From positions 1 through 24,718 of IMG/VR virus record IMGVR_UViG_3300022693_000903: DNA of 24,718 bases; one strand, given 5' to 3'. Shown here in pieces: positions 41-24,718 of this stretch. Origin of the DNA: a virus. How positions within the stretch are numbered: the stretch's first letter is position 1; every line of letters starts with the position of its first letter. Below the pieces are notes generated by a model, which worked only from the letters and a program-made list of their open reading frames with translations, did no database searches and was not told the origin of the DNA. A program made the translations under genes and the position numbers.

Positions 41-220
41 ATGCCAAGAAATGAAGAGCTTCAGCAGGAAAAGCGCCAGTCTATTTTAAATTTCTTTCGT
101 GAGTTAGATGCTGCGGAAGAGTTTGGCGTTAAAAAATACACGACTTCTTACTGTATGGCAAAGACCGCCCGACGTTTCTTTTTATCTTCTCGAAGTATAG
201 AGCGTTATATCTATGGCTAG
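41..220 (+). CDS. Small basic protein, putative HTH-like
   Basis: This 59-aa charged protein starts at the ATG at 41. The frame is open upstream to the window edge, but the residues before Met are hydrophobic and do not look conserved. The C-terminal part (FFLSSRSIERYIYG) has the spacing of a small helix-turn-helix recognition segment, with Ser-Ile-Glu-Arg followed by a terminal Gly. Similar short proteins are common in Bacteroidota phages and mobile elements, but I do not know a proven role. It is the only rightward gene left of the head module and converges with the next gene, their stop codons overlapping in CTAG (217-220). It is probably the last gene of the early or middle region that lies outside the window. 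A DNA-binding role is inference. Confidence 0.5.
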   Translation: MPRNEELQQEKRQSILNFFRELDAAEEFGVKKYTTSYCMAKTARRFFLSSRSIERYIYG

Positions 221-762
221 TTAATTTTATCGTATAGGCAGCTTCCCTCTTCTGCATTCGGTGGCATTGCGTTGCCCACTTCAACCTCCATTTCTTCAAA
301 TTTAGTAGGTATGGTTAAGATGGTTGCAGAATCATCATTTACCGTACATTCATAACGCTGTACATAGAGAAGGTTTGCGGTTCCTGTTTCTACCGGGTTA
401 AACCCCGTTCGTTTCATATTGTAAAAGGTTTGCCCTTCAGTAGCGTGAAAACAAGCATTTATTTTGGTTAATAAATCTAAAAAAGCCAACGCGGTACTTT
501 GCTTTTTACTACCTCTAGAGCTATCTGCAAAAGTTTCATAATACAAGTAAACCTCAACTTGCATTCTTAATTGTTGGATCCGGTCGCCCTGGTCTTCGGT
601 ATTCAAAATGCGGTAAGCAAAAAATGTTGCGGGAGCTTTAAAAAAATGTTCTTCCGCTAGAAAACCAATTTGCTCGCTCCAAAGATCAACGTGTTTAATT
701 TCGGGAATATAATCGGTAATTCTTTGCTCGTGTTCGAGGTATAATTCTTTTAAATGTTTCAT
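217..762 (-). CDS. Putative head-tail connector or tail terminator
   Basis: This 181-aa soluble protein is the last gene of the leftward head operon, starting 1 base after the gpG-like gene. I do not recognise a named motif. It has no signal peptide or membrane segment, and it has mixed alpha/beta composition with a central stretch (about residues 60-130) rich in aromatic and charged residues. In Mu-like phages the gene after gpG/DUF1320 is usually the small tail-terminator or neck protein (Mu gp37 type, about 180 aa), and size and position fit that. The function is inferred from synteny only. The ATG at 760-762 is well placed, directly behind the preceding stop. Confidence 0.5.
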   Translation of the reverse strand: MKHLKELYLEHEQRITDYIPEIKHVDLWSEQIGFLAEEHFFKAPATFFAYRILNTEDQGDRIQQLRMQVEVYLYYETFADSSRGSKKQSTALAFLDLLTKINACFHATEGQTFYNMKRTGFNPVETGTANLLYVQRYECTVNDDSATILTIPTKFEEMEVEVGNAMPPNAEEGSCLYDKIN

Positions 763-763
763 C

Positions 764-1288
764 TTAAATAGTGTTTAAATGCTGTTTAAATCGCTGTGTT
801 ATGGTTTTAAAGAATAAATCTTCAATATGCGCATTGAAGTTTTCGGAATGCCCCATAAATTGTCGTTTAGGGATTTTAATTTTAAAAGCCTGTTTTTTAG
901 TTAAAGCCATTGCCCTGTACTTTTCATCTTCTGTTTTGTAATACATCAACCAAAAGTATTTACGCATTCTGGGCGTAACTCTTACGTTAATTATACCGCC
1001 TTCATTATGTATTTGTGCATATTTTGCACTAGCTGAAACCACCACACGATCCGGGTTACTTTCAGTCACTTTAACCGAATCGCGTAACATTCCCGATTTA
1101 ACCAAAACCGCCCGACCGGGATCCGCGTTATCTTTCCGCTTTTCCCAAGGGGTTAAGCTTTTATCGGTAAAGCCCTGCTTTTCAAAATTACCCATTACAA
1201 AGTTGATCATTTCGACCTCGGCAATGGTTTGGGCATCTTTAATCAATTGCTCACCTATTTTCTGAAAATCGGGTATTTTGTTGGACAT
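764..1288 (-). CDS. Phage virion morphogenesis protein, Mu gpG-like
   Basis: This is a 174-aa protein of the phage virion morphogenesis (gpG) family, which acts in head completion or tail attachment. Visible hallmarks in order are an N-terminal helix, the segment TPWEKRKDNADPGRAVLVKSG, then LRDSVKV and a YAQIHNEGG motif. The PW..R..L..SG.L..S......YA..HN.GG pattern is characteristic of the family. I chose the ATG at 1286-1288. The longer open frame to 1342 would run through a GC-rich hairpin and a promoter-like element and adds 18 non-conserved residues. It follows the MuF gene on the same strand after a 69-base gap that holds the hairpin. Confidence 0.8.
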   Translation of the reverse strand: MSNKIPDFQKIGEQLIKDAQTIAEVEMINFVMGNFEKQGFTDKSLTPWEKRKDNADPGRAVLVKSGMLRDSVKVTESNPDRVVVSASAKYAQIHNEGGIINVRVTPRMRKYFWLMYYKTEDEKYRAMALTKKQAFKIKIPKRQFMGHSENFNAHIEDLFFKTITQRFKQHLNTI

Positions 1289-1308
1289 ACTATATTTTTG
1301 TATCTTTG
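1277..1308 (+). promoter_or_regulatory. Bacteroidota-type promoter, antisense to the head operon
   Basis: TTTG (1277-1280) is followed after 20 bases by TATCTTTG (1301-1308), which fits the Bacteroidota -33 TTTG and -7 TAnnTTTG consensus with its 19-21 spacing. It faces rightward, opposite to the surrounding genes, and points straight into a hairpin plus T7 tract. Either it drives a very short RNA or the match is chance; AT-rich sequence of this length could give a match by luck. Confidence 0.45.
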
Positions 1309-1314
1309 TAAAAC

Positions 1315-1359
1315 AAATGGGGGCGCGAGGCGAAAGCATCAAGCCCCCTCCCTTTTTTT
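1315..1359 (+). ncRNA. Candidate ~45-nt antisense RNA
   Basis: A consensus-like promoter ends at 1308 and a hairpin with a T7 tract ends at 1359. Any transcript would be about 45 nt, would contain little more than the hairpin, and would be complementary to the junction between the MuF and gpG genes. No reading frame of note fits in it. This is inference from signal placement only; RNA sequencing would be needed. Confidence 0.25.
1319..1359 (+). terminator. GC-rich hairpin with T7 tract
   Basis: GGGGGC (1319-1324) and GCCCCC (1343-1348) form a perfect 6-bp GC stem around an 18-base loop. TCCC and seven T (1353-1359) follow. On the plus strand this is a good intrinsic terminator about 10 bases after the expected start of the promoter at 1277-1308. 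On the minus strand it lies between MuF and gpG, where the following bases are only weakly U-rich. Confidence 0.5.
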
Positions 1360-2692
1360 AGTCCTTTAGGAACTCCTCTAAATCTTTGTAATCACGTTTT
1401 AAAATTTTTGCCCTGGTAATCTCGAGAGCTTTTTCTTTTAAAGTGAAAAATATGCTTGCTATTTTTTTTCCGCGCTCCGGACTTATCTTGTTATTTAATT
1501 GCTGTTTAAAGCTGTTTAAATCAATCTTTTTAATGCCGTCAAGGTTGAACACTATCGAGTAGTTGCCATTTTCCCCCATCTGCTTTTTAGCGCTCTTAAA
1601 AGCGTTGGTAATGCCATTATTAGAAGTAAGGTTTTTCAAGTCGGCCACCTTTCCGTTTACTTCCAGTTCCGGATTCTTTTTACCTTTTAAAATACTGGAG
1701 TTAACGTGTGGCCTAATTTTTACTTTCGCTTTTAGGCTATTGACCAAGATTTTAGAGTTTGCCAAATTCTGATCAATATCTTTTGGGTCTGCCCAAACCG
1801 AGCTTTGTATGTTCCCGGAACCCTTTTTAAAGATTTCCTCGTACATCGGTTCCAAGAGCTTCAACTCTTCAAAACCTTTTCTAATTTTGGAGACTTCTGC
1901 CTCCGGAAAAAGAAAATAGGGATGATCTTCATTAAAGGTTCGGCCATCCTTTCCTACATTATTTTCAAAACCCGGTGTTGGCTCAGCTTTCGGAGTTCCT
2001 TTAGTAGCAGGTTTGGAAGTTTGAACTACATAGCATCTACAATTAAAACCATTAGGCGGATACCATTTATCCCAAAACTTATCATCAATCGGTTTGATCA
2101 CATCATCAATATTGGCGTGATCTTCTCTTACACGATTATCTTTGGCGGTTTTATATTGTAAGTTAGGATAAACGCCTTTTTGGTCTTCATATTTAGCCCA
2201 TTTCTCGGCCATAGCGCCGGCACGTTGTGCGCTGTTGTATTCCGTCTGTAAATAGTGCCGGTTATACTGCTCGTTAAGTTTTAAGGCCTCTTTTTGAAAT
2301 TCTGAAAATGGTCGTGGTTCCCCGTCATCGCCTTGCAATAAAAAGTTAAGCTTGGCTAGTTCCTGATAAGTTTTTGCTCCGGAAAAACGGAAAAGGTTTT
2401 GGCGAAGCTCCAGTTTTCTTTTAGCATTACTATTATAATTATAAAAGCTTTTTCCATAACCTTTTCCGGTAGCTTCTTTCAAGTCCTCAAAAGTTTGTTT
2501 TACTAGATCGGTATTTAGATCTGCAGGTTTTATTTTACCCTTGTGCAGATCTTTCGCTATTCTTTTGATCAGCTTGGTGTAGCTGCTTAGATCTAGAGCT
2601 TCAAAACTTAACCCTTCTTCAATTTTTTTAGCGTAAAAAGATTGTATCTCTTTAGAGATATGAGCGTCGAAACTGGCTATTGATTGGGCTTT
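1358..2692 (-). CDS. MuF-type minor head protein with C-terminal nuclease-like domain (frameshifted from portal)
   Basis: This is a Mu gpF/SPP1 gp7-family head morphogenesis protein. Family marks are D-x-RVREDH-x-N-x-DD and PPNGFNCRCYV, at residues about 115-152 counted from a TTG at 2482. The conserved N-terminal part (FDAHISKEIQSFYAKK) lies upstream of that TTG. The frame is open back to 2736 but has no ATG, GTG or TTG there. It enters exactly at an A10 run in the end of the portal gene, where A AAA AAG permits a -1 shift, so the likely product is a portal-MuF fusion of about 850 aa. The last ~135 residues hold KNPELEVNGKVADLK and a following helix with Lys-Lys-Gln, resembling CdiA-type tRNA nuclease toxins. 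An assembly error in the A10 run is the main alternative. Confidence 0.75.
   Translation of the reverse strand, partial: KAQSIASFDAHISKEIQSFYAKKIEEGLSFEALDLSSYTKLIKRIAKDLHKGKIKPADLNTDLVKQTFEDLKEATGKGYGKSFYNYNSNAKRKLELRQNLFRFSGAKTYQELAKLNFLLQGDDGEPRPFSEFQKEALKLNEQYNRHYLQTEYNSAQRAGAMAEKWAKYEDQKGVYPNLQYKTAKDNRVREDHANIDDVIKPIDDKFWDKWYPPNGFNCRCYVVQTSKPATKGTPKAEPTPGFENNVGKDGRTFNEDHPYFLFPEAEVSKIRKGFEELKLLEPMYEEIFKKGSGNIQSSVWADPKDIDQNLANSKILVNSLKAKVKIRPHVNSSILKGKKNPELEVNGKVADLKNLTSNNGITNAFKSAKKQMGENGNYSIVFNLDGIKKIDLNSFKQQLNNKISPERGKKIASIFFTLKEKALEITRAKILKRDYKDLEEFLKD
2645..2660 (-). other. Perfect 16-bp palindrome downstream of portal slippery site
   Basis: TATCTCT (2645-2651) and AGAGATA (2654-2660) pair perfectly around two T. 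In the transcript of the leftward operon this hairpin begins about 28 nt after the slippery heptamer. That is farther than the usual 5-9 nt for a frameshift stimulator, so a role is uncertain. Confidence 0.3.
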
Positions 2693-3906
2693 TTTTTTTC
2701 GTCCTTTGTGGACGTTGGAATGGTGGTAGCTTGCTTAAATTCTGAAATTGGGATCCCGGTTTGCTCGGTCAAATATTTAATATCTACTTGATACCCTGCA
2801 TTAGAAAGTTTAACCACGGTTTCAATAAGTTCTTCAGGTGTGAGTTCCTTACTTTCGTCCCAATCAAACTTATAATTTGAAATACCCTTATAAACCGGGC
2901 TTATCTCTTCTAAACGCCACAGCAGTTCATCATTGATGATATATGAAATATCGGTTTTATCGGCCGCGTGGCGATCGTCGGCCACGTCTTGCATTACCTG
3001 CAGGCTACCATAAGTACCCGATTTATCGTTTGAGTTGGTGGTACCGTCTTGACCTAAAATTCCTTTGCTCATTTCCGAGTTCATACGCATAATAAGCTCG
3101 TCAAATATAGCCTTAGCGTTACCGCCTTGAACGTTCATCGTTTCGATCTTTTCATTGCCTTGTAAAACCGCCCAATGATTATTGATCATAGAGGCCATCA
3201 TATCGGCAAGCTCTTTATGGCGATCGGGGTTGTAACTATCAGTAGTTACCCAACGTGGCGATATACCATATTTTTCAGAAAATTCAACCCAAGCAGCTTT
3301 AGCAAACTTCTTAGCCAATGCGTCCGGAGCAACATCTTCTAGGATACCCAAATCGTTATTGGTACCAATTTGAATATAATAAGGTTCATAGCTACCTTCT
3401 TTGTATGGATAGCCTTTTTCATCGCCAACCTCTTTGGTAATAATCCCTTCAGTAAAAAGTATATTTTCTGAAGGGATATAATTTGCGGCTTTAAGTTCAA
3501 GCGTGTCCGGATCTAAATCCCAAAGTTCAATAACCGATGATCCCCAAAACTTAGCCTTCATTGAATGATAAAGAAAACGGTTAAACCATTGCGCCGTAAA
3601 TAGCTCGTGCATACTGGTATTTTCGTTTCCATTTTTATCGGTGATCTTAAATTTAGATCCCATAATTTTTAAGACCCTTGTTTGTATATCAGACTTAAGG
3701 TGTAAATCTCTTGTAATGGAACGGTAAACCTCCATCAATGGCGCACGATTAGGATTTTCAGCCAATGAAGCTAATTGAACCGCATCACGCCAAGTTTTGA
3801 TACTTTGTACGCTTAGCGATTGACTTTTTGGAAGTATAATGTTAGAAGGCCTGTTTTGCCTTGTGTGGTTATATTGCTTGCCTATACGGCTATTTTGTCC
3901 TGCCAT
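2677..3906 (-). CDS. Portal protein, DUF935 (Mu gp29-like)
   Basis: This 409-aa protein is of the DUF935 portal family, which forms the dodecameric DNA channel at the head vertex and docks the terminase. The N-terminal part has the expected long helical region (RDLHLKSDIQTRVLKIMG). The later GILGQDGTTNSNDKSGTYGS region followed by VMQDV matches the conserved glycine-rich turn before the stem helices. The C-terminus ends in a Lys-rich stretch over an A10 run (2690-2699). The zero-frame product stops six codons later, while a -1 shift leads into MuF. Residues 309-319 (ADDRHAADKTD) are encoded by a 34-bp sequence repeated in inverted orientation at 10339-10372. It starts 3 bases from the DUF1320 stop. 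Confidence 0.9.
   Translation of the reverse strand: MAGQNSRIGKQYNHTRQNRPSNIILPKSQSLSVQSIKTWRDAVQLASLAENPNRAPLMEVYRSITRDLHLKSDIQTRVLKIMGSKFKITDKNGNENTSMHELFTAQWFNRFLYHSMKAKFWGSSVIELWDLDPDTLELKAANYIPSENILFTEGIITKEVGDEKGYPYKEGSYEPYYIQIGTNNDLGILEDVAPDALAKKFAKAAWVEFSEKYGISPRWVTTDSYNPDRHKELADMMASMINNHWAVLQGNEKIETMNVQGGNAKAIFDELIMRMNSEMSKGILGQDGTTNSNDKSGTYGSLQVMQDVADDRHAADKTDISYIINDELLWRLEEISPVYKGISNYKFDWDESKELTPEELIETVVKLSNAGYQVDIKYLTEQTGIPISEFKQATTIPTSTKDEKKKPNQ
2689..2695 (-). promoter_or_regulatory. Slippery heptamer A AAA AAG, portal to MuF
   Basis: Read on the minus strand in the portal frame, the codons are GAA AAA AAA AAG CCC. A AAA AAG is the classic dnaX-type -1 slippery heptamer in the correct phase. 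Slipping by one base gives AAA AAA then GCC, which is the MuF frame. The MuF N-terminus has no usual start codon of its own. Confidence 0.5.
2949..2982. repeat. 34-bp perfect inverted repeat, copy 1
   Basis: These 34 bases inside the portal gene are identical, in reverse complement, to 10339-10372. Both copies encode the same 11 residues (ADDRHAADKTD) in the same frame. The match stops abruptly on both sides. It contains the palindromes CGATCG and CGGCCG. Confidence 0.9.
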
Positions 3907-3909
3907 AGC

Positions 3910-4335
3910 TTAATAATTGTATAAATCTTGATTGGTTGAGTTTCCCCAGTTCACGAGTTTTTGCTCTACTTCTTCAGGTAATGGTAGTTCGGGATTTTCT
4001 TTACCGTCTCTAACGTCGTTTAGCCATTCTTTAACCTCGTCATATTCCTTAACAAAATCGCTTGGCACTTTACGAGCCGCATTCCTTCTTACTAATCTAT
4101 AAGTAACAATTCCTGTTACCGCCCAAAGGATAAGATCACGTCCCTCATAGGGAGCGTCTGAAAATATAATACCTACATCAAAGCGTTTACGCAGCTTACT
4201 TTTTACCAAGGCAATAGCCTGTTTTTCTATGGCCTCGGTAGCTTCAATATCTTCTTGTTCGCTCTCATCAATAAATTGCTCAAAAACCCTAGTTTCGAGG
4301 TCATCTTTAGTTATAAATTGAAATATAATAGCCAT
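3910..4335 (-). CDS. DUF1320 protein (Mu gp36-like)
   Basis: This 141-aa protein resembles the DUF1320/gp36 family of Mu-like phages, thought to act at the head-tail connector. Features are an N-terminal FITKDDLETRV segment, an acidic stretch, an A..KSKLRKRFDV helix, then RDLILWAVTGIVTYRLVRRNA, a helix typical of the family. Its ATG shares one base with the stop of the large terminase gene (ATTA on the plus strand at 4334-4337), indicating translational coupling. In Mu this gene lies after the major head gene; here it sits between terminase and portal. Assignment rests on pattern and context. Confidence 0.75.
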   Translation of the reverse strand: MAIIFQFITKDDLETRVFEQFIDESEQEDIEATEAIEKQAIALVKSKLRKRFDVGIIFSDAPYEGRDLILWAVTGIVTYRLVRRNAARKVPSDFVKEYDEVKEWLNDVRDGKENPELPLPEEVEQKLVNWGNSTNQDLYNY

Positions 4336-5846
4336 TAGTATAAATGTTTTCGTTCTACACGACCGGTGGATATAGTTCCCGGTCGTCTGCTATAAATATG
4401 TTTGCTTAAAAACCCGATGGCACATTCATCGGCATCGGGTGCATCATCGTGACCTTTATAATTGGGTTCAATACCTAAAAGTTGAGCTTTAGCAATTTGA
4501 GTATCTCGATGTGCCTTTTTCTTTTCATTCCAATAAACCCGACCATTTTGGTAATAAGGGTGGATGGAGAGAATACGATCATATTTTTTTGTTCGTGGAT
4601 TTTGAACTTTAGTTAGCCGTAATTCTATTTGATAAGTATCTTCAATTTCGCGAATGGTGCGTTCAACTTCATCATTCCAAAACTGCGCTTCAAATTGCCA
4701 GTGAACATAAACGGAATTAGGTAAGCTCATTTGAAACTGGCACATCCATTCTAAGGCGGCTCTCATTTTACTTTTACGTACAAAGCTGTCGATGTAGTAA
4801 AACTGCTTTTCCTTAAGTCCCCAAACTCTTACGGCATTATAATCTGCAGTAGCAGTTCCGGCATAGGCAATATCCCAATGGCCTACAATAATTTCAAAAT
4901 GATCAATACGCGGAAGTTTTGCCCACTGAATATGTTCTTCTTTAAAAATTTTCCCTTCTACGTGAGGCTCTTGGTTATATTCAGCTTGAGCAGCCAAAAC
5001 CCCGATTTCTTCCTCAACGATTTTAAAATAATGATCACTATATTTTTCCGGCCAACTTGGTTTATAGGTAACAGGATCATAAGCTTTAATATGATGCACA
5101 AACCATTCGGGATGACGCTCCTGTAATTTCTTTTGAATCATTACCGGGGCAAAAGCATTATTAGCCTGTACAAACCTTCTGGTTTCGCCATCCATTGTTG
5201 GTAGGAGGTGTTTTTCTACCCATTCTACAACCTCATCTTGTCGGCGTTCGTTCTTAACACTCTGTGCGGTTTCGCAATCATCCATCACGATGTAATTAGG
5301 GCGTAAGTTTTTAACACGTAAACCGCGGCAGCTTTGCCCCATACCAATAGCTTGACCGATAAAACCGTTAGAGGTCATATAAAAGCCGTCTTCCCAACTA
5401 CCTAGATTTTTTTGTTCCCCGTGGTCACCAATAATTTGAGCGTTATTTTCCCATTCAAGACGTAAATCTTCTAAAAGCTGCTTAGCTTTATCGTAAGAAT
5501 TACCTACGATAACCATATACACTTTTTCGCCTTTAAGCCATAGCCAAAAAGGAATAAGAATATCACAGAGTACAGATTTTGCCAAACCGCGACCCCATTC
5601 GGCAAAGGCTTTTGCCGTTAAGTTTTTGGAAAGATATTTAGCAAGTTCAATATGAAACTTTGCTGAGGGGCTATCTGCATAATGAGGAAAGTAACGTTGT
5701 ACGCATTTGGCAAAATCTTTTTTACATATTTCAATAGCGGCTTTGCGTTCTTGCTTAGTCTCATTAGGATTAATGTGACCTGAAGAACGTATTAACTTGA
5801 TTTTTTCAAGTATGCGCTTTTGTGCTATTTTATCTTGCTGCTTCAA
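4335..5846 (-). CDS. Terminase large subunit (Mu gp28-like)
   Basis: This 503-aa packaging motor has an N-terminal ATPase and C-terminal nuclease. Residues 84-91 (WGRGLAKS) are the Walker A loop, with Arg-Gly-Leu-Ala-Lys-Ser as in terminases, and IVMDDCE (about 186-192) is Walker B with the catalytic acid. GHWDIAYAG (mid C-terminus) and DDAPDADECAIG (near the end) carry the nuclease aspartates. The frame has no ATG until residue 111. A stop lies upstream at 5859-5861, so the likely start is the TTG at 5846, overlapping the preceding gene by 17 bases, which suggests coupled translation. It drives DNA packaging together with the small subunit and portal. Confidence 0.9.
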   Translation of the reverse strand: MKQQDKIAQKRILEKIKLIRSSGHINPNETKQERKAAIEICKKDFAKCVQRYFPHYADSPSAKFHIELAKYLSKNLTAKAFAEWGRGLAKSVLCDILIPFWLWLKGEKVYMVIVGNSYDKAKQLLEDLRLEWENNAQIIGDHGEQKNLGSWEDGFYMTSNGFIGQAIGMGQSCRGLRVKNLRPNYIVMDDCETAQSVKNERRQDEVVEWVEKHLLPTMDGETRRFVQANNAFAPVMIQKKLQERHPEWFVHHIKAYDPVTYKPSWPEKYSDHYFKIVEEEIGVLAAQAEYNQEPHVEGKIFKEEHIQWAKLPRIDHFEIIVGHWDIAYAGTATADYNAVRVWGLKEKQFYYIDSFVRKSKMRAALEWMCQFQMSLPNSVYVHWQFEAQFWNDEVERTIREIEDTYQIELRLTKVQNPRTKKYDRILSIHPYYQNGRVYWNEKKKAHRDTQIAKAQLLGIEPNYKGHDDAPDADECAIGFLSKHIYSRRPGTISTGRVERKHLY

Positions 5847-6084
5847 CCTCGCTTTTTTTTATAATGCGGTTTTCTTTAGTATGATTTACTTGGTTTTGAT
5901 TAAAGTCGTAAAAGAGATTAGTGACAACCTTAACTTTATATCTCTCGTGGTCAATTTTTCGGCTTCTAACAATTTGCCCAATTTCATAACCACAACCTTT
6001 TTTTAATAAGTATGCACCAATTTGCAATTGCCATTGGTTCTTTTTGGCACGGTTCCACAAAAGATTTAAAATGAGTTTAAACAT
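5830..6084 (-). CDS. Small unknown protein between terminase subunits
   Basis: This 84-aa basic protein sits between the small and large terminase genes: 4 bases after the former's stop and overlapping the latter by 17 bases. It has a hydrophobic N-terminal stretch (about residues 1-10), then a basic segment with KKGCGYEIGQIVRSRKI and KVKVV-type beta strands. No family is recognised. The compact, strongly basic composition would suit nucleic-acid binding or a terminase accessory role, but that is a guess from context. Confidence 0.6.
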   Translation of the reverse strand: MFKLILNLLWNRAKKNQWQLQIGAYLLKKGCGYEIGQIVRSRKIDHERYKVKVVTNLFYDFNQNQVNHTKENRIIKKSEVEAAR

Positions 6085-6088
6085 AATT

Positions 6089-6598
6089 TTATCGGTATTT
6101 AAGCGCTATTGAATTAATATGCTCTTCAAAAAAGTCTAAGACACTTTCCTGCATTTTGCCGGGAAGTTTTTCGAGCATAGCACCCATAATTTGTTCGGTA
6201 ACGTTGATGTAAACATTGTAGGGAATGCGATGCTCCTTCTCGAAATTGTCTTTTGTTTTGTTCAGCTTGGCGATCGCATCGATAATGCCCACTTTTTCTT
6301 TAGCGCGATCCTTTTTGGCCTCCCTAATTTCTTTATCGGTCAGTCCACTATAATCGTCATCTTCCGTTTCGATCTTAATGGCTCTTTCGGCATAAATATT
6401 AATAAGCTCATTAATATTTTCAATGCCCGATTGCAGGTTGGCCATTTTAGCGTTACGGCGTTCTTTCCAACCATATTCATCAACCCAACGGCCGATCGTC
6501 TTTTCGGTTACGCCAACCATTTTAGCAGTTTCCTTTGCCGTCTTCTTTTGATTGATGTAAAGGCTTTCGGCAAGCCTTCTTTCTTTGTCTTTTGCCAT
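6089..6598 (-). CDS. Terminase small subunit (Mu gp27-like)
   Basis: This 169-aa protein has an N-terminal helix-turn-helix. Residues about 15-45 read KTAKETAKMVGVTEKTIGRW, then VDEYGWKERR, the DUF1804/terminase small subunit pattern with the typical Gly-Trp after the recognition helix. A long charged helical region follows. It should bind phage DNA and deliver it to the large subunit. I chose the ATG at 6596-6598. The open frame extends to 6748, but those extra 50 residues run through a 59-bp hairpin and look non-coding. It is the first gene of the leftward head operon. Confidence 0.8.
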   Translation of the reverse strand: MAKDKERRLAESLYINQKKTAKETAKMVGVTEKTIGRWVDEYGWKERRNAKMANLQSGIENINELINIYAERAIKIETEDDDYSGLTDKEIREAKKDRAKEKVGIIDAIAKLNKTKDNFEKEHRIPYNVYINVTEQIMGAMLEKLPGKMQESVLDFFEEHINSIALKYR

Positions 6599-6786
6599 TT
6601 CAATACAATGATTACAGGCACAAAGTTGAGATAACAAAGGCGTTAAAGTGGTTTTCAATTTCCAAAGTGCGTGTCTGTATTCCGCAAAGTGCGGACTGTA
6701 TACACGCACTTTGGAAAAGCAATTTCTTATCCGGTGTGTTTTGGGCAAAATTTGTCAACCAATTGCAGTAACAAACGCAGACGATT
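6599..6786. promoter_or_regulatory. Divergent intergenic control region
   Basis: This 188-bp region separates the leftward head operon from the rightward protease-capsid-tail operon, so it must carry or receive the promoters for both. I found no good TAnnTTTG element in it on either strand, which would fit promoters that depend on a phage late activator (compare Mu gpC). Its main feature is the hairpin at 6659-6717. Confidence 0.6.
6659..6717. repeat. 59-bp hairpin with 16-bp perfect arms
   Basis: The arms 6659-6674 and 6702-6717 are perfect inverted repeats (TTTCCAAAGTGCGTGT and its complement). Inside, TCCGC (6681-6685) and GCGGA (6691-6695) form a second stem around AAAGT. Between the stems lies CTGTAT on both sides as a direct repeat. 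The AAAGTGC word occurs in the left arm, the centre and, inverted, the right arm. The symmetry centred on 6688 suits a dimeric regulator serving two divergent operons, or an extruded or RNA hairpin. Confidence 0.75.
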
Positions 6787-18842: not shown

Positions 18843-20108
18843 ATGCCAATTGTTAAAAGAAATAACAAGATTATGAAACGTGGCGGTAAGGTTCTTAACC
18901 GCTACATCAAAACGCTTACTTTTCAGGTGGAGGGCAGTTATTTTCCGTTAAATCCGTATAATACTTCAGTTCAACAAATACACCCAACATGCACTTTTAT
19001 GTTTTATTCCTCGGTGCCTAATACAGTAACTATAAATTTCGGTGATGGCGTTGTAGTCGTGAAAGAATTTATTGAAGAAACACCCGGTATATATGTTTTC
19101 GGATGGCGTGGAGAAAATAGTTATTATAACTCTCAGCCCTATGATGATGAGATTCATATATTTCAAGATGATACTACACAAGCTCGAAATATTTCTTTTG
19201 AGTTTGAAAACATTTTAGCAATTTATGAGAATCCTCTAAATTTTTGTGGAATAATTAAAACTCCACCGGAATGGGAATATACATCCCTTACTGAGTTAAA
19301 TATACTAAATACGTTAACAATAGAAGATATAGAGAGGGTGCCTTCTACTGTAACTAATAGATTAAGATTGCAAAACGCATTTTCCCAAAAGAAAACACAG
19401 ATACCCGACCAATGGTTTTCAGCAACAAATGTGAGATTCTTATACTTTGCGAATTCTTTTGATTTTTCAGATAGTTTAGCTTCAAACCTATACAAAATCA
19501 ATCAATTTCCGCTTGCAGAAATTATAGATTTTAATAGTTGCAATCTGAATAATTTACCTGATTCTATTAATGATCTTCATTATCTAGATCAGCTTAAAAT
19601 AGAAAGTAATGATTTTACTTCCATTCCTAAACTATCAAATCCTTCAGTAAAAAGGGTTGATATGTTTGGTAATAATCAAATTTCTAATCCTGTTATTCCT
19701 AATTGGAACGGTAACCTATATTTAGAAACTTTGAATTGGAATTTTACCCCTATCAACTCTCTAGATTTTTCAACTATTCCGCAAAACTGGAATGGAATGA
19801 AAAATTTAAAAACTATTAGATTAAATTTTAGTACCGATATACAGTTTAATAATTATATATCTAACCTTTACCAATTATGCACCGAAAATGCATTTATTGA
19901 TCCTTCTAGCCAAGAAGCTATCGATAGCGGATGGCCAAATCAATTTAGAGTATTGAATTGGGGAGATTCAAGCCTGACGGTAGACAACACAGTAGAACCC
20001 GCACCCGGTTTTCAAGCAGGAATTAGTAATGGAAGTCCGCAGCATAATGGCCATAAGGTTTATGCAATGCTTGTCAACTATGCTCACAATATTCAATTTA
20101 ATAACTAA
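18843..20108 (+). CDS. Leucine-rich-repeat protein, candidate receptor-binding tip
   Basis: This 421-aa protein has an N-terminal basic start, a PKD-like beta domain at about residues 48-115 (TCTFMFYSS-like start, VTINFGDGVVVVKEF), and a leucine-rich-repeat array at about 222-330. Repeats read IIDFNSCNLNNLPDSI, LDQLKIESNDFTSIP, VKRVDMFGNNQ and LKTIRLNFS. Base composition is more AT-rich than the neighbours (for example TTTTAATAGTTG stretches), which suggests a later addition. It lies in the fibre block and probably sits at the distal tip, where LRRs could bind a host surface protein or glycan. That role is inference; LRRs also occur in Bacteroidota surface proteins. Confidence 0.7.
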   Translation: MPIVKRNNKIMKRGGKVLNRYIKTLTFQVEGSYFPLNPYNTSVQQIHPTCTFMFYSSVPNTVTINFGDGVVVVKEFIEETPGIYVFGWRGENSYYNSQPYDDEIHIFQDDTTQARNISFEFENILAIYENPLNFCGIIKTPPEWEYTSLTELNILNTLTIEDIERVPSTVTNRLRLQNAFSQKKTQIPDQWFSATNVRFLYFANSFDFSDSLASNLYKINQFPLAEIIDFNSCNLNNLPDSINDLHYLDQLKIESNDFTSIPKLSNPSVKRVDMFGNNQISNPVIPNWNGNLYLETLNWNFTPINSLDFSTIPQNWNGMKNLKTIRLNFSTDIQFNNYISNLYQLCTENAFIDPSSQEAIDSGWPNQFRVLNWGDSSLTVDNTVEPAPGFQAGISNGSPQHNGHKVYAMLVNYAHNIQFNN

Positions 20109-22611: not shown

Positions 22612-22665
22612 AACCCGAAAGCTCTACGGAGGACACAAAGTCTTCTTAGAGTTTTCGGGTTTTTT
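22612..22665 (+). terminator. Long intrinsic terminator after the tail genes
   Basis: CCCGAAAGCTCT (22614-22625) pairs with AGAGTTTTCGGG (22648-22659) with a single G-U wobble. The stem is extended by AA/TT at its base and by GAGGAC/GTCTTC (22629-22634/22640-22645) at its top. Six T (22660-22665) follow. An outer stem TCTCTGACC (22589-22597) with GGTCAGAGA (22674-22682) encloses everything. It should stop tail transcription before the modification cassette or serve as attenuator for it. Confidence 0.85.
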
Positions 22666-22708: not shown

Positions 22709-22840
22709 ATGGCAACAAAAGAAGTAACCTACAAAGAGCAATTTGGAGTAATTGTTATTTGTGACAGTGAAAAACATCAAGAGAATGTTTTTAAAGATTT
22801 AAAAAAGAAAGGATTAAAATTAAAAGTAGTAACAGTATGA
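22709..22840 (+). CDS. 43-aa protein of the modification cassette
   Basis: This short gene begins at the ATG at 22709 and ends in ATGA (22837-22840), overlapping the ATPase start, so the two are surely translated together. The 43 residues contain a central strand (FGVIVICDS), a charged helix (EKHQENVFKDLKKKG) and a final strand (LKLKVVTV), a beta-alpha-beta mini-fold. It has no Cys pair or DNA-binding motif. No family is recognised. Being first in the cassette, it could be a subunit or regulator of the ATPase-acetyltransferase. Confidence 0.65.
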   Translation: MATKEVTYKEQFGVIVICDSEKHQENVFKDLKKKGLKLKVVTV

Positions 22841-23532
22841 TAGATTTAAAAATTGAGCATCGATCAAGTGATTTTGATAGTTATCGAGCCAACAGAGTAA
22901 AAAGTATGTTTAATGCCGAAAGTGGCTGCAATTGGGAAAAAGATATTAAGATTGATTTATCGGAAGAATGGGGACTCGGACTTATTGTTGGTTCATCAGG
23001 TTCCGGTAAATCTTCTCTTGGTAAATTATTTTTTGAAAAGGATAAAACTTATGACCCCTATGAAAATTGGGATCCTAATAAGCCTATTATCGATTGTATA
23101 TCACCTGAGAAAGAATTTAATCAAATAACTGGTGCCCTAGCCGGTGTAGGTTTAGGAACCGTTCCCGCTTGGCTTAGACCTTTTAAGGCTCTTAGTAATG
23201 GTCAGCAATTTAGAGCCGGTTTAGCGAGAGTGATTTGTGAAGCTCCCGAGGAAGTCGTAATTGATGAATTTACAAGTGTAGTTGATCGACAAATCGCAAA
23301 AGTTGGAGCTCTAGCTTTTGGTAAAGCTTGGAGAAGAAATAAAGGAAAAAAAGCAGTCTTATTAAGTTGCCATTACGATGTGATAGAATGGTTACAGCCT
23401 GATTGGGTTTATAATATAGATACTGGGGAATTAAAAAAAAAAGCGAAATCGGATCAAGGCCAAAATTCAAGCTTGATATTTGGAAGGTCAACGGAACTTA
23501 TTGGAACAAATTTAAAGAGCATTATTATTTAG
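22837..23532 (+). CDS. Soluble ABC-type ATPase (ATPase part of an ATPase-GNAT protein)
   Basis: This is a cytosolic ABC ATPase. Walker A is GSSGSGKS (52-59), the signature LSNGQ (119-123), Walker B VVIDE (140-144) with the catalytic Glu, and the H-loop His179. No membrane partner lies nearby, so it is not a transporter. The family closest in architecture is COG2401, described as an ABC ATPase fused to a predicted acetyltransferase. The zero frame runs out into 29 residues that look non-coding (AKSDQGQNSSL...), while the -1 frame after an A10 run (23433-23442) continues as a GNAT domain. The likely full product is a fusion of about 375 residues. Function is unknown; I infer a modification or repair-linked role. 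Confidence 0.85.
   Translation: MIDLKIEHRSSDFDSYRANRVKSMFNAESGCNWEKDIKIDLSEEWGLGLIVGSSGSGKSSLGKLFFEKDKTYDPYENWDPNKPIIDCISPEKEFNQITGALAGVGLGTVPAWLRPFKALSNGQQFRAGLARVICEAPEEVVIDEFTSVVDRQIAKVGALAFGKAWRRNKGKKAVLLSCHYDVIEWLQPDWVYNIDTGELKKKAKSDQGQNSSLIFGRSTELIGTNLKSIII
23433..23442 (+). promoter_or_regulatory. A10 run, slippery site between ATPase and GNAT
   Basis: In the ATPase frame the codons are TTA AAA AAA AAA GCG, so A AAA AAA is available for a -1 shift, and the A10 itself could permit RNA polymerase slippage. After the shift the frame reads AAA AGC GAA and continues through the GNAT domain. A near-palindrome centred on AAGCTT (23460-23483) follows 17 bases later but is a weak hairpin. An undercalled A (A11) would also join the frames. 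Confidence 0.5.
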
Positions 23533-23960
23533 ACCTACCAAGACCGGTTGCGGCTGAATATTACGTAGGAACTGTAAATGGTGAGTTGGTCTGTCATTTA
23601 GCAGTATCACCTTTATTTACGGCAAGAGCATATAGAGCAACACGTTTAGTAGTTATGCCGGAATGGCAAGGCGCGGGAGTTGGAATAAAATTTTTAAATG
23701 AAGTTTGCCAAAGGCAATTGGACGGTTTAGGTAGAAAGGGACATAAATTCGGGACATTTTTCCACACTACCCATCCACAGCTATGTAATGCTTTGAGAAA
23801 TCAAAAGAATTGGATTTTCACAAAGTCAAGCTTATGCGGATCCAATAAAAAGCGAAGTAAAGAAAGTATTTTAAAAACAGGTAAGGGAATAATAAAAGGC
23901 GCAGGGTATGGCGGTCACTTTAGAGCCATACAAGCGTTTAAATATATTGGAAATGAATAA
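23442..23960 (+). CDS. GNAT-type acyltransferase domain, Mom-like by context
   Basis: This is the -1 frame continuation of the ATPase gene, about 172 residues. It begins RPKFKLDIWKVNGTYWNKF, passes YYVGTVNGELVCHLAVS and carries RLVVMPEWQGAGVGIKFLN, the GNAT motif A with its Gln/Arg-x-x-Gly-x-Gly acyl-CoA loop. FFHTTHPQLCNALRNQKNW follows as the usual later GNAT strand and helix. The only usual start before the acyl-CoA loop is an in-frame TTG at 23586, which would delete the N-terminal strands. Mu Mom is also GNAT-like and also lies at the phage right end. Homology to Mom itself is unproven. The last 8 bases overlap the formyltransferase start (ATGAATAA). Confidence 0.7.
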   Translation, partial: SEIGSRPKFKLDIWKVNGTYWNKFKEHYYLDLPRPVAAEYYVGTVNGELVCHLAVSPLFTARAYRATRLVVMPEWQGAGVGIKFLNEVCQRQLDGLGRKGHKFGTFFHTTHPQLCNALRNQKNWIFTKSSLCGSNKKRSKESILKTGKGIIKGAGYGGHFRAIQAFKYIGNE

Positions 23961-24621
23961 AATTAAAGTATTTATAAGTGGACAGAAATATTTTGGAATG
24001 GAAATATTTGATTTGTGTCACAAATTAAAATTTATTGAAATTGTAGGTGTATGCGCTCCTTTGGGGGATAAGTATATAGGAAGAAAGGCTTCTCGTTATG
24101 GAATACCCATTATTCCTGCGGGTAGCCTTAATGCCGATACCATGCCGGAAGGTGTTGACTTAGGTATTACGGCGCATTCATTTGATTATATCGGCAAAAA
24201 AACTAGGTATAAAGCTAAACTTGGGTGGATAGGTTATCACCCAAGTCTTTTGCCCAGGCATAGGGGTAGATCTTCAATTGAATGGGCGATACGGATGAAA
24301 GATGCAATCACCGGAGGTACAATATTTTGGTTGAATGCAGGAATAGATAGAGGAGATATAGCCTACAGGGATTGGTGTTTTATAAATCCTAAATACTTCA
24401 TTTTAGAGCCTAAGAGAGCCGCAAAGTTATTATGGGAGGATAAGTTACAAAAGATAGGGCTTAAGTTATTTGAGCTTGCTTTAAATGATATTTCTAATGG
24501 TATTATCAAGAAATCGCCACAAGAAAATCTATATAGTACATTTGAACCTAGTACTGAGGTCAAAGATATATTCAAGCCGGATCTTTTAATGCTAGAGAAA
24601 AACGCAAGCCCCAGTACTTAG
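23953..24621 (+). CDS. Formyltransferase-like enzyme (Fmt/PurN fold)
   Basis: This 222-aa protein has the formyltransferase N-terminal fold. GYHPSLLPRHRG (94-105) is the signature loop with the catalytic His96, and GGTIFWLNAGIDRGDI (121-136) contains Asp132. The Asn that precedes the His by two in PurN, Fmt and ArnA (N-x-H) is replaced by Gly94, so the chemistry or substrate may differ. The length equals the catalytic domain alone, without the tRNA-binding C-terminal domain of Fmt. I chose the ATG at 23953, not the upstream 23908, because it gives the expected beta1 start (IKVFISG). It is the last gene of the cassette and may work on a base or sugar made by the upstream proteins. Confidence 0.85.
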   Translation: MNKIKVFISGQKYFGMEIFDLCHKLKFIEIVGVCAPLGDKYIGRKASRYGIPIIPAGSLNADTMPEGVDLGITAHSFDYIGKKTRYKAKLGWIGYHPSLLPRHRGRSSIEWAIRMKDAITGGTIFWLNAGIDRGDIAYRDWCFINPKYFILEPKRAAKLLWEDKLQKIGLKLFELALNDISNGIIKKSPQENLYSTFEPSTEVKDIFKPDLLMLEKNASPST

Positions 24622-24625
24622 AAAA

Positions 24626-24642
24626 GGTCTCGATATGAGACC
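24626..24642 (+). other. Small hairpin after the cassette
   Basis: GGTCTC (24626-24631) and GAGACC (24637-24642) form a perfect 6-bp stem around GATAT directly behind the last stop. No T tract follows, so it is at best a weak terminator. Confidence 0.4.
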
Positions 24643-24672
24643 ATTTAAACTCTGATTAAATAGTATTTAAAT

Positions 24673-24708
24673 GTACTTTTCGTTTTAAATTTTGGTATTT
24701 TTCGTTTT
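24673..24708. repeat. 22-bp-spaced direct repeats, probable phage right-end sites
   Basis: GTACTTTTCGTTTT (24673-24686) and GTATTTTTCGTTTT (24695-24708) match in 13 of 14 positions and are exactly 22 bp apart. Two roughly 22-bp transposase-binding sites in tandem next to the right end is the Mu arrangement (R1, R2). The exact end is not visible, since no TG..CA boundary or host duplication can be shown inside the window. Confidence 0.55.
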
Positions 24709-24718
24709 GCCGATTATA

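Follow-up and report, generated by a model that had tools for sequence, protein, structure and literature searches.

Introduction

In phages, the known cases of programmed frameshifting are mostly tail chaperones and transposases; in dnaX, a −1 shift takes place at a heptamer of the A_AAA_AAG type. At the +1 site of prfB, the consensus CTT_TGA_C is preceded by an SD (PMC3711429). Proteins in which an ABC ATPase is joined to a GNAT acyltransferase have been predicted to acylate a DNA base, an example being that of Tenacibaculum phage pT24 (Iyer et al., PMC7824862). Another phage protein of GNAT fold is Mom of phage Mu, which occupies a slot at the right end of the phage genome, is preceded by a short overlapping gene, and works without an ATPase or a formyltransferase.

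The DNA analysed here (the window, a stretch of 24,718 nt of viral DNA) belongs to a Mu-like phage that carries at its right end genes for a 43-aa protein, an ABC ATPase-GNAT protein and a formyltransferase-like (FT) protein. pT24 was matched by both the ABC and the GNAT parts of the window, which are therefore of the same protein family (phrog_11143, described as COG2401-like in an earlier sequence-only reading of the window), and the acylated base predicted by Iyer et al. agrees with the scheme proposed below. The sequence-only reading had presented the cassette as a candidate new one. Novelty holds for its recoding, of which the available part of PMC7824862 makes no mention, and for the FT and the 43-aa/ParB-like partner, which are added here, but not for the ABC-GNAT protein, whose predicted action on a DNA base is already in that source. 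No report of frameshifting in ABC-GNAT or FT-GNAT cassettes was found in the literature searched. The new and surprising part is the conserved two-product recoding by two opposite mechanisms, the ABC-GNAT family itself having been predicted before.

Organization of the cassette at the phage right end

The features of the region are the following:

22612–22661, plus strand: inverted repeat with 20-nt arms and a 10-nt loop, then a T run; resembles an intrinsic terminator and lies between the tail genes and the cassette
22709–22840, plus strand: ORF of the 43-aa protein (phrog_28816), a putative free-standing C-terminal domain of the partner protein
22837–23532, plus strand: ABC ATPase with 0-frame tail, 231 aa, the short product; tail predicted to be disordered
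23433–23442, plus strand: A10 run with A_AAA_AAA heptamers in −1 phase, candidate −1 frameshift site
23443–23532, plus strand: dual-coded overlap of the 0-frame tail and the start of the −1-frame GNAT, both frames predicted to be read
23530–23532, plus strand: 0-frame stop TAG, arising from the Leu codon of HYYL in the GNAT frame
23433–23960, plus strand: GNAT acyltransferase domain in the −1 frame; phrog_11143 spans the ABC and GNAT parts
23953–24621, plus strand: formyltransferase-fold protein, FDH-hydrolase-like (Pfam Formyl_trans_N, 5e-15)
24626–24642, no strand assigned: short GC stem 3' of the cassette, terminator-like on the minus strand in a scan
24672–24718, no strand assigned: right-end repeats and Mu-like phage terminus, TGTACTTTTCGTTTT...TTTCGTTTTGCCGATTATA

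The 43-aa and ABC ORFs overlap by 4 nt; the most likely FT start, the ATG at 23953, gives an 8-nt overlap with the GNAT stop. All the parts that the sequence-only reading had placed at 22709–24621 were present there, and the terminator that it had put ahead of them corresponds to the strong, terminator-like inverted repeat and its T run. The last letters of the window are TTTCGTTTTGCCGATTATA, and complete Porphyromonas Mu-like phage records share a terminal TCGTTTTGCCGATTATA; since the window ends as these records do, the cassette is the last element before the right end of the phage. The host of the phage is probably a member of the Bacteroidota.

The Walker A, LSNGQ signature, Walker B DE and H-switch motifs of the ABC part are intact, and all are conserved in relatives. 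Its neighbours are tail genes, the 43-aa gene and FT, and no membrane partner or transmembrane domain was found near it, in keeping with the earlier description of an ATPase with all catalytic motifs and no transporter partner. The GNAT fold of the −1-frame domain was confirmed by fold comparison, and phrog_11143 (357 aa) covers ABC and GNAT as one protein. An anti-phage defence system was considered and set aside, the PADLOC matches being to a generic ATPase only.

Distribution of the cassette and its ParB-like partner

Phage records were searched by tblastn, which located the cassette in phages of Porphyromonas, Pseudomonas (Komp_PAO1_1) and Gordonia; scans of viral contigs and of species genomes yielded 80 loci each. 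Throughout the set, the 43-aa ORF, ABC, GNAT and FT occurred together and in the same order in 155 of 163 ABC-bearing loci from many phyla, a recurrence that is, on these counts, far beyond chance. The search for the trio in other phages suggested by the sequence-only reading was thus rewarded, and the homologues, being found in phages, were not confined to metabolic operons. FT was absent only where the contig ends, except for L163 and pT24; distant members of the family also lack it. In pT24 (L169, 4776–5948), an in-frame TAA splits the GNAT part.

The motif of the 43-aa protein forms the C-terminal end of proteins of 170–270 aa in L020–L081 and in the Gordonia locus L084, and a longer partner protein, mostly of 170–270 aa, precedes ABC-GNAT in other loci. 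A ParB_N domain was detected in the partners of L020, L050 and L081. As judged from this shared motif, the 43-aa protein corresponds to the C-terminal domain of such a ParB_N-containing partner, occurring by itself. In Microbacterium phage Antuna (L167, 3469–4621), a ParB_N protein lies directly before a Mom-like gene, and ParB-like partners would thus be common to two unrelated GNAT modification systems, the Mom-like one of Antuna and ABC-GNAT.

A −1 frame break between the ABC and GNAT parts

The ABC frame of the window stops at 23532, and GNAT is read in the −1 frame from the A10 run. Because the two parts lie in different frames, the ABC-GNAT of the window can be a single protein only through a change of frame, the long product then being 22837–23442 joined to the −1-frame GNAT. 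The earlier statement that the ATPase leads into a GNAT domain was right as to both domains, which fall under one profile, but missed the difference of frame and with it the programmed frameshift.

Of the 163 loci, 95 place GNAT in the −1 frame, and A_AAA_AAR was found in the correct phase at the junction of every one of these. In this class the A run ranges from 6 (then G) to 11, with A6G as the only form in two loci and A7 in 23. All loci of the −1 class have the 0-frame stop at one aligned position, where it arises from the GNAT-frame Leu codon of HYYL; this position is kept even where the next residue differs and the stop is another codon. The same frame break is present in complete and isolate genomes, such as that of Chryseobacterium sp. 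ZHDP1, and the distant relatives in Lactococcus P335 and Streptococcus Javan420 are of a −1 type with a C-rich linker. No conserved or stable RNA fold was found downstream of the shift sites. Two loci, L010 and L102, keep the A run with GNAT in frame and look like recent one-base changes of class; the related loci L077 and L079 look broken.

These data bear on two ways of dispensing with a frameshift. Homopolymers are error-prone and the two broken loci exist, so the break might be a sequencing error or a dead gene; recurrence in 95 loci, complete and isolate genomes included, with both frames under selection, refutes this at the level of the family and leaves it scarcely tenable. Re-initiation yielding GNAT as a separate protein, for which the annotation of Lactococcus P335 as two ORFs could be cited, is very improbable and was rejected, as a start codon able to give intact GNAT alone, ahead of its conserved N-terminal part, is missing from 78 of the 95 loci, and ABC and GNAT are fused in frame in about 60 others. 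In the window itself, the GNAT frame contains no ATG, GTG or TTG before the TTG at 23586, which follows HYYL.

In-frame fusions carry a prfB-like +1 site

ABC and GNAT are fused in frame in about 60 of the 163 loci. These were first taken as a presumed no-selection control for the 0-frame tail of the −1 class; the finding that they also keep an alternative frame open led to the recognition of a +1 class. Among unique in-frame linkers, 41 of 42 have CTT as the P-site Leu codon (8.8 expected), and 33 of 37 have CGG or AGG as the A-site Arg codon (12.4 expected). The codons that follow CTT are CGG, TGG, AGG, CGA or CAA; UGA is absent from the A site of these in-frame sites, which has a sense codon instead. 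An SD-like motif was found upstream in 22 of 62 in-frame loci versus a background of 1.5%, AGGGGG or GGGAGG often lying three bases 5' of the shift site, and it was absent from the Bacteroidales linkers of this class. The linkers of Pseudoalteromonas SL25 (AGG GGG AGT CTT AGG C) and Leptospira LE3 (AGG AGG TTG CTT TGG C) illustrate the arrangement, and a +1 slip at the CTT site enters exactly the open tail. By their codon pattern, the in-frame linkers have the layout of the prfB +1 site with a sense codon replacing UGA.

The two classes thus resemble dnaX in the A_AAA_AAG-like heptamer of one and prfB in the SD and CTT_NNN_C of the other (PMC3711429). In contrast to dnaX and prfB, both shift directions occur here within a single gene family, whose default frame is swapped between them; the A site of the +1 class has sense codons, and there is no clear stem-loop.

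The alternative-frame tail is conserved in both classes

A tail of about 30 codons in the alternative frame is present in both classes and ends at the same codon. Expectations were derived by synonymous resampling with the codon usage of each gene. In the −1 class the alternative frame was open in 94 of 94 loci and stopped at the same codon in 94 of 94, against 29 and 39 expected; for the in-frame class both counts were 64 of 64, against 36.8 and 23.3. Similarity of the tail peptide between loci exceeded what the GNAT frame requires, with z values of 11.0 and 8.6 and no stops, which are upper bounds because related sequences share codons by descent; control windows from the same genes, equally related, gave z values of 0.3–4.3 and stops in many loci. 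The distant phages P335, LE3, SL25 and Jace also keep the two-frame arrangement. AlphaFold gave the tail a pLDDT of 41–52, and it is probably disordered on its own.

The recoding comparison took in about 170 relatives. In the tree, the −1 class forms one Bacteroidota-rich clade, members of the in-frame class are distributed over Pseudomonadota, Planctomycetota, Verrucomicrobiota, Bacillota, Bacteroidales and Gordonia phages, and about three changes of class are needed. From these patterns of conservation, the gene very probably makes two proteins, ABC with the tail and ABC-GNAT, throughout the family, and we infer that the frame is shifted in the cell. The shift in the window could instead occur in transcription, by slippage on the A run, since the A9–A11 of the window and many relatives is long enough for RNA polymerase to slip. 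We consider this unlikely: same-class relatives have only A7 or A6G, which are too short for efficient transcript slippage, and the CTT-CGG/TGG sites of the other class would be read by ribosomes only.

The slot is shared with Mom and DNA methylases

Porphyromonas phage006a and phage013a share 91% identity along 7.7 kb of sequence that reaches to the end of the last tail gene. Past this point, one of them carries the cassette and the other a Mom homologue (289 aa, phrog_1384, E = 2e-40), and the right end is again common to both. The parallel with the location of mom drawn in the sequence-only reading is therefore strongly supported, Mom and the cassette being interchanged in one slot of sister phages. 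Relatives of the tail genes of the window have in this slot a D12 adenine methylase, a C5 cytosine methylase, or a DNA methyltransferase with a thymidylate-synthase-like protein. The likeness to Mom extends to the GNAT fold and the short overlapping gene in front, but not to the profiles: the comparison of GNAT with Mom, proposed as a check by the earlier reading, returned an hhalign probability of 0.4%, and by fold a protein named Mom appeared only at rank 49, so that GNAT was rejected as a relative of Mom.

Thymidylate-synthase-like proteins fill the right-end slot in the related Mu-like phages L258 (10358–11822), L263 (6050–7577), L264 (11955–12641) and L265 (13394–14032), and in L258 and L263 a DNA methyltransferase lies just 5' of that gene; the two may possibly form a further base-modification pair. 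In Aeromonas phage PX29 (NC_023688), an ABC relative and a Mom homologue were both matched, so ABC-GNAT and Mom are not strict alternatives.

By analogy with the genes that share its slot, the cassette would act on DNA, a target well supported by position. The idea that it instead acylates a host molecule, be it a protein, a tRNA or a cell-surface sugar, draws on the nearest PDB folds to GNAT, which are protein N-acetyltransferases, and on phage GNATs such as Rac, which modify host RNA polymerase (PMC7824862). It is rather improbable given that sister phages have Mom and DNA methylases in the same place, that the partner is ParB-like, and that the same source independently predicts ABC-GNAT to modify DNA.

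The formyltransferase-like protein resembles a thiol-formylating domain

GNATs take their acyl group from acyl-CoA, and amine formyltransferases have an Asn two residues before the catalytic His. In profile comparison, the best match of FT was the N-terminal domain of 10-formyl-THF dehydrogenase (FDH; 6.7e-43), followed by Fmt (5.8e-27), PurN (7.6e-16) and HoxX (2.4e-13). In the window FT, the His (24238–24240) and Asp (24346–24348) are kept and the Asn of N-x-H is replaced by Gly (24232–24234), in line with the altered active site of which the sequence-only reading had spoken. Throughout the phage FT family this Asn is replaced, by Gly in most members and by other residues in the rest, so that the catalytic Asn-x-His plus Asp set of PurN and Fmt is incomplete, whereas His, Ser and Asp are invariant and match the triad of FDH. 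FDH transfers formyl to a phosphopantetheine thiol by means of a His-Ser-Asp triad (PMC6802093), and HypX has been proposed to make formyl-CoA (PMC8748788). The triad alone does not discriminate, as Fmt and PurN share His and Asp; what discriminates is the profile ranking together with the missing Asn, which is absent from both FDH and the phage FT. Unlike ALDH1L1 (FDH) and HypX/HoxX, the phage FT has no carrier or dehydrogenase domain and adjoins a GNAT.

As GNATs use acyl-CoA and FT is nearest to a thiol-formylating domain, the simplest reading is that FT supplies formyl-CoA to GNAT, and formyl would then be the group transferred. We know of no GNAT that uses formyl-CoA as a donor. Since distant members lack FT, formyl cannot be universal, and another acyl-CoA would serve there. 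The sequence-only reading had suggested stepwise decoration, in which GNAT would add an aminoacyl or similar group to the base and FT would formylate its free amine. The position of FT directly 3' of GNAT and its more distant relationship to the amine-formylating Fmt, PurN and ArnA speak for such a sequence of steps. It is nonetheless improbable, and less likely than supply of a formyl donor, because FT lacks the Asn used by amine formylators and is much nearer to FDH, whose acceptor is a thiol.

A scheme for the cassette

The reading that best accounts for these results, to which we give a probability of roughly 60%, is that the cassette fills a DNA-modification slot of Mu-like phages with an ABC-GNAT system in which one gene yields two proteins by programmed frameshifting, and which acylates a DNA base using formyl-CoA from FT as the donor. 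The products would be the ABC ATPase bearing a short tail and the same ATPase fused to GNAT; ABC subunits would form dimers that grip or scan phage DNA at the expense of ATP, with the 43-aa protein, as a ParB-partner domain, helping ABC on DNA. GNAT, present on a fraction of the subunits, would acylate the exocyclic amine of a base. FT would most likely move formyl from 10-formyl-THF to the phosphopantetheine thiol of CoA, and GNAT would use the resulting formyl-CoA. Comparison establishes the cassette and its conservation, the dual coding, the shift sites and the slot common to Mom and methylases; DNA as the target, formyl as the group and the role of the short form are inferred. More tentatively, the whole could represent an ancient phage DNA-modification family whose two-protein output is preserved in every lineage by recoding, with switches between a prfB-like +1 site and, when the default frame is swapped, a −1 site at A_AAA_AAR; the mark of the FT-bearing clade would be a base formylated from formyl-CoA.

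Programmed frameshifting thus appears to be built into a family of DNA-modification enzymes across several phyla, and opposite shifts that keep the same pair of products suggest that an ATPase without acyltransferase has a needed role. Such genes are easily misdescribed: by ORF finding, GNAT appears detached from the ATPase in the −1 class, and in the in-frame class the short form goes unseen. The formyl-CoA proposal, if true, gives a concrete mass, +28 Da, for an uncharacterised predicted DNA modification.

Elsewhere in the window, the portal, terminase, neck and head-morphogenesis genes (217–6748) are on the minus strand, forming an inverted head module, and the protease, capsid and tail genes are on the plus strand, opposite to it. 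Among the tail genes, a 421-aa protein with leucine-rich-looking repeats (18843–20108) is possibly a receptor-binding or fibre protein.
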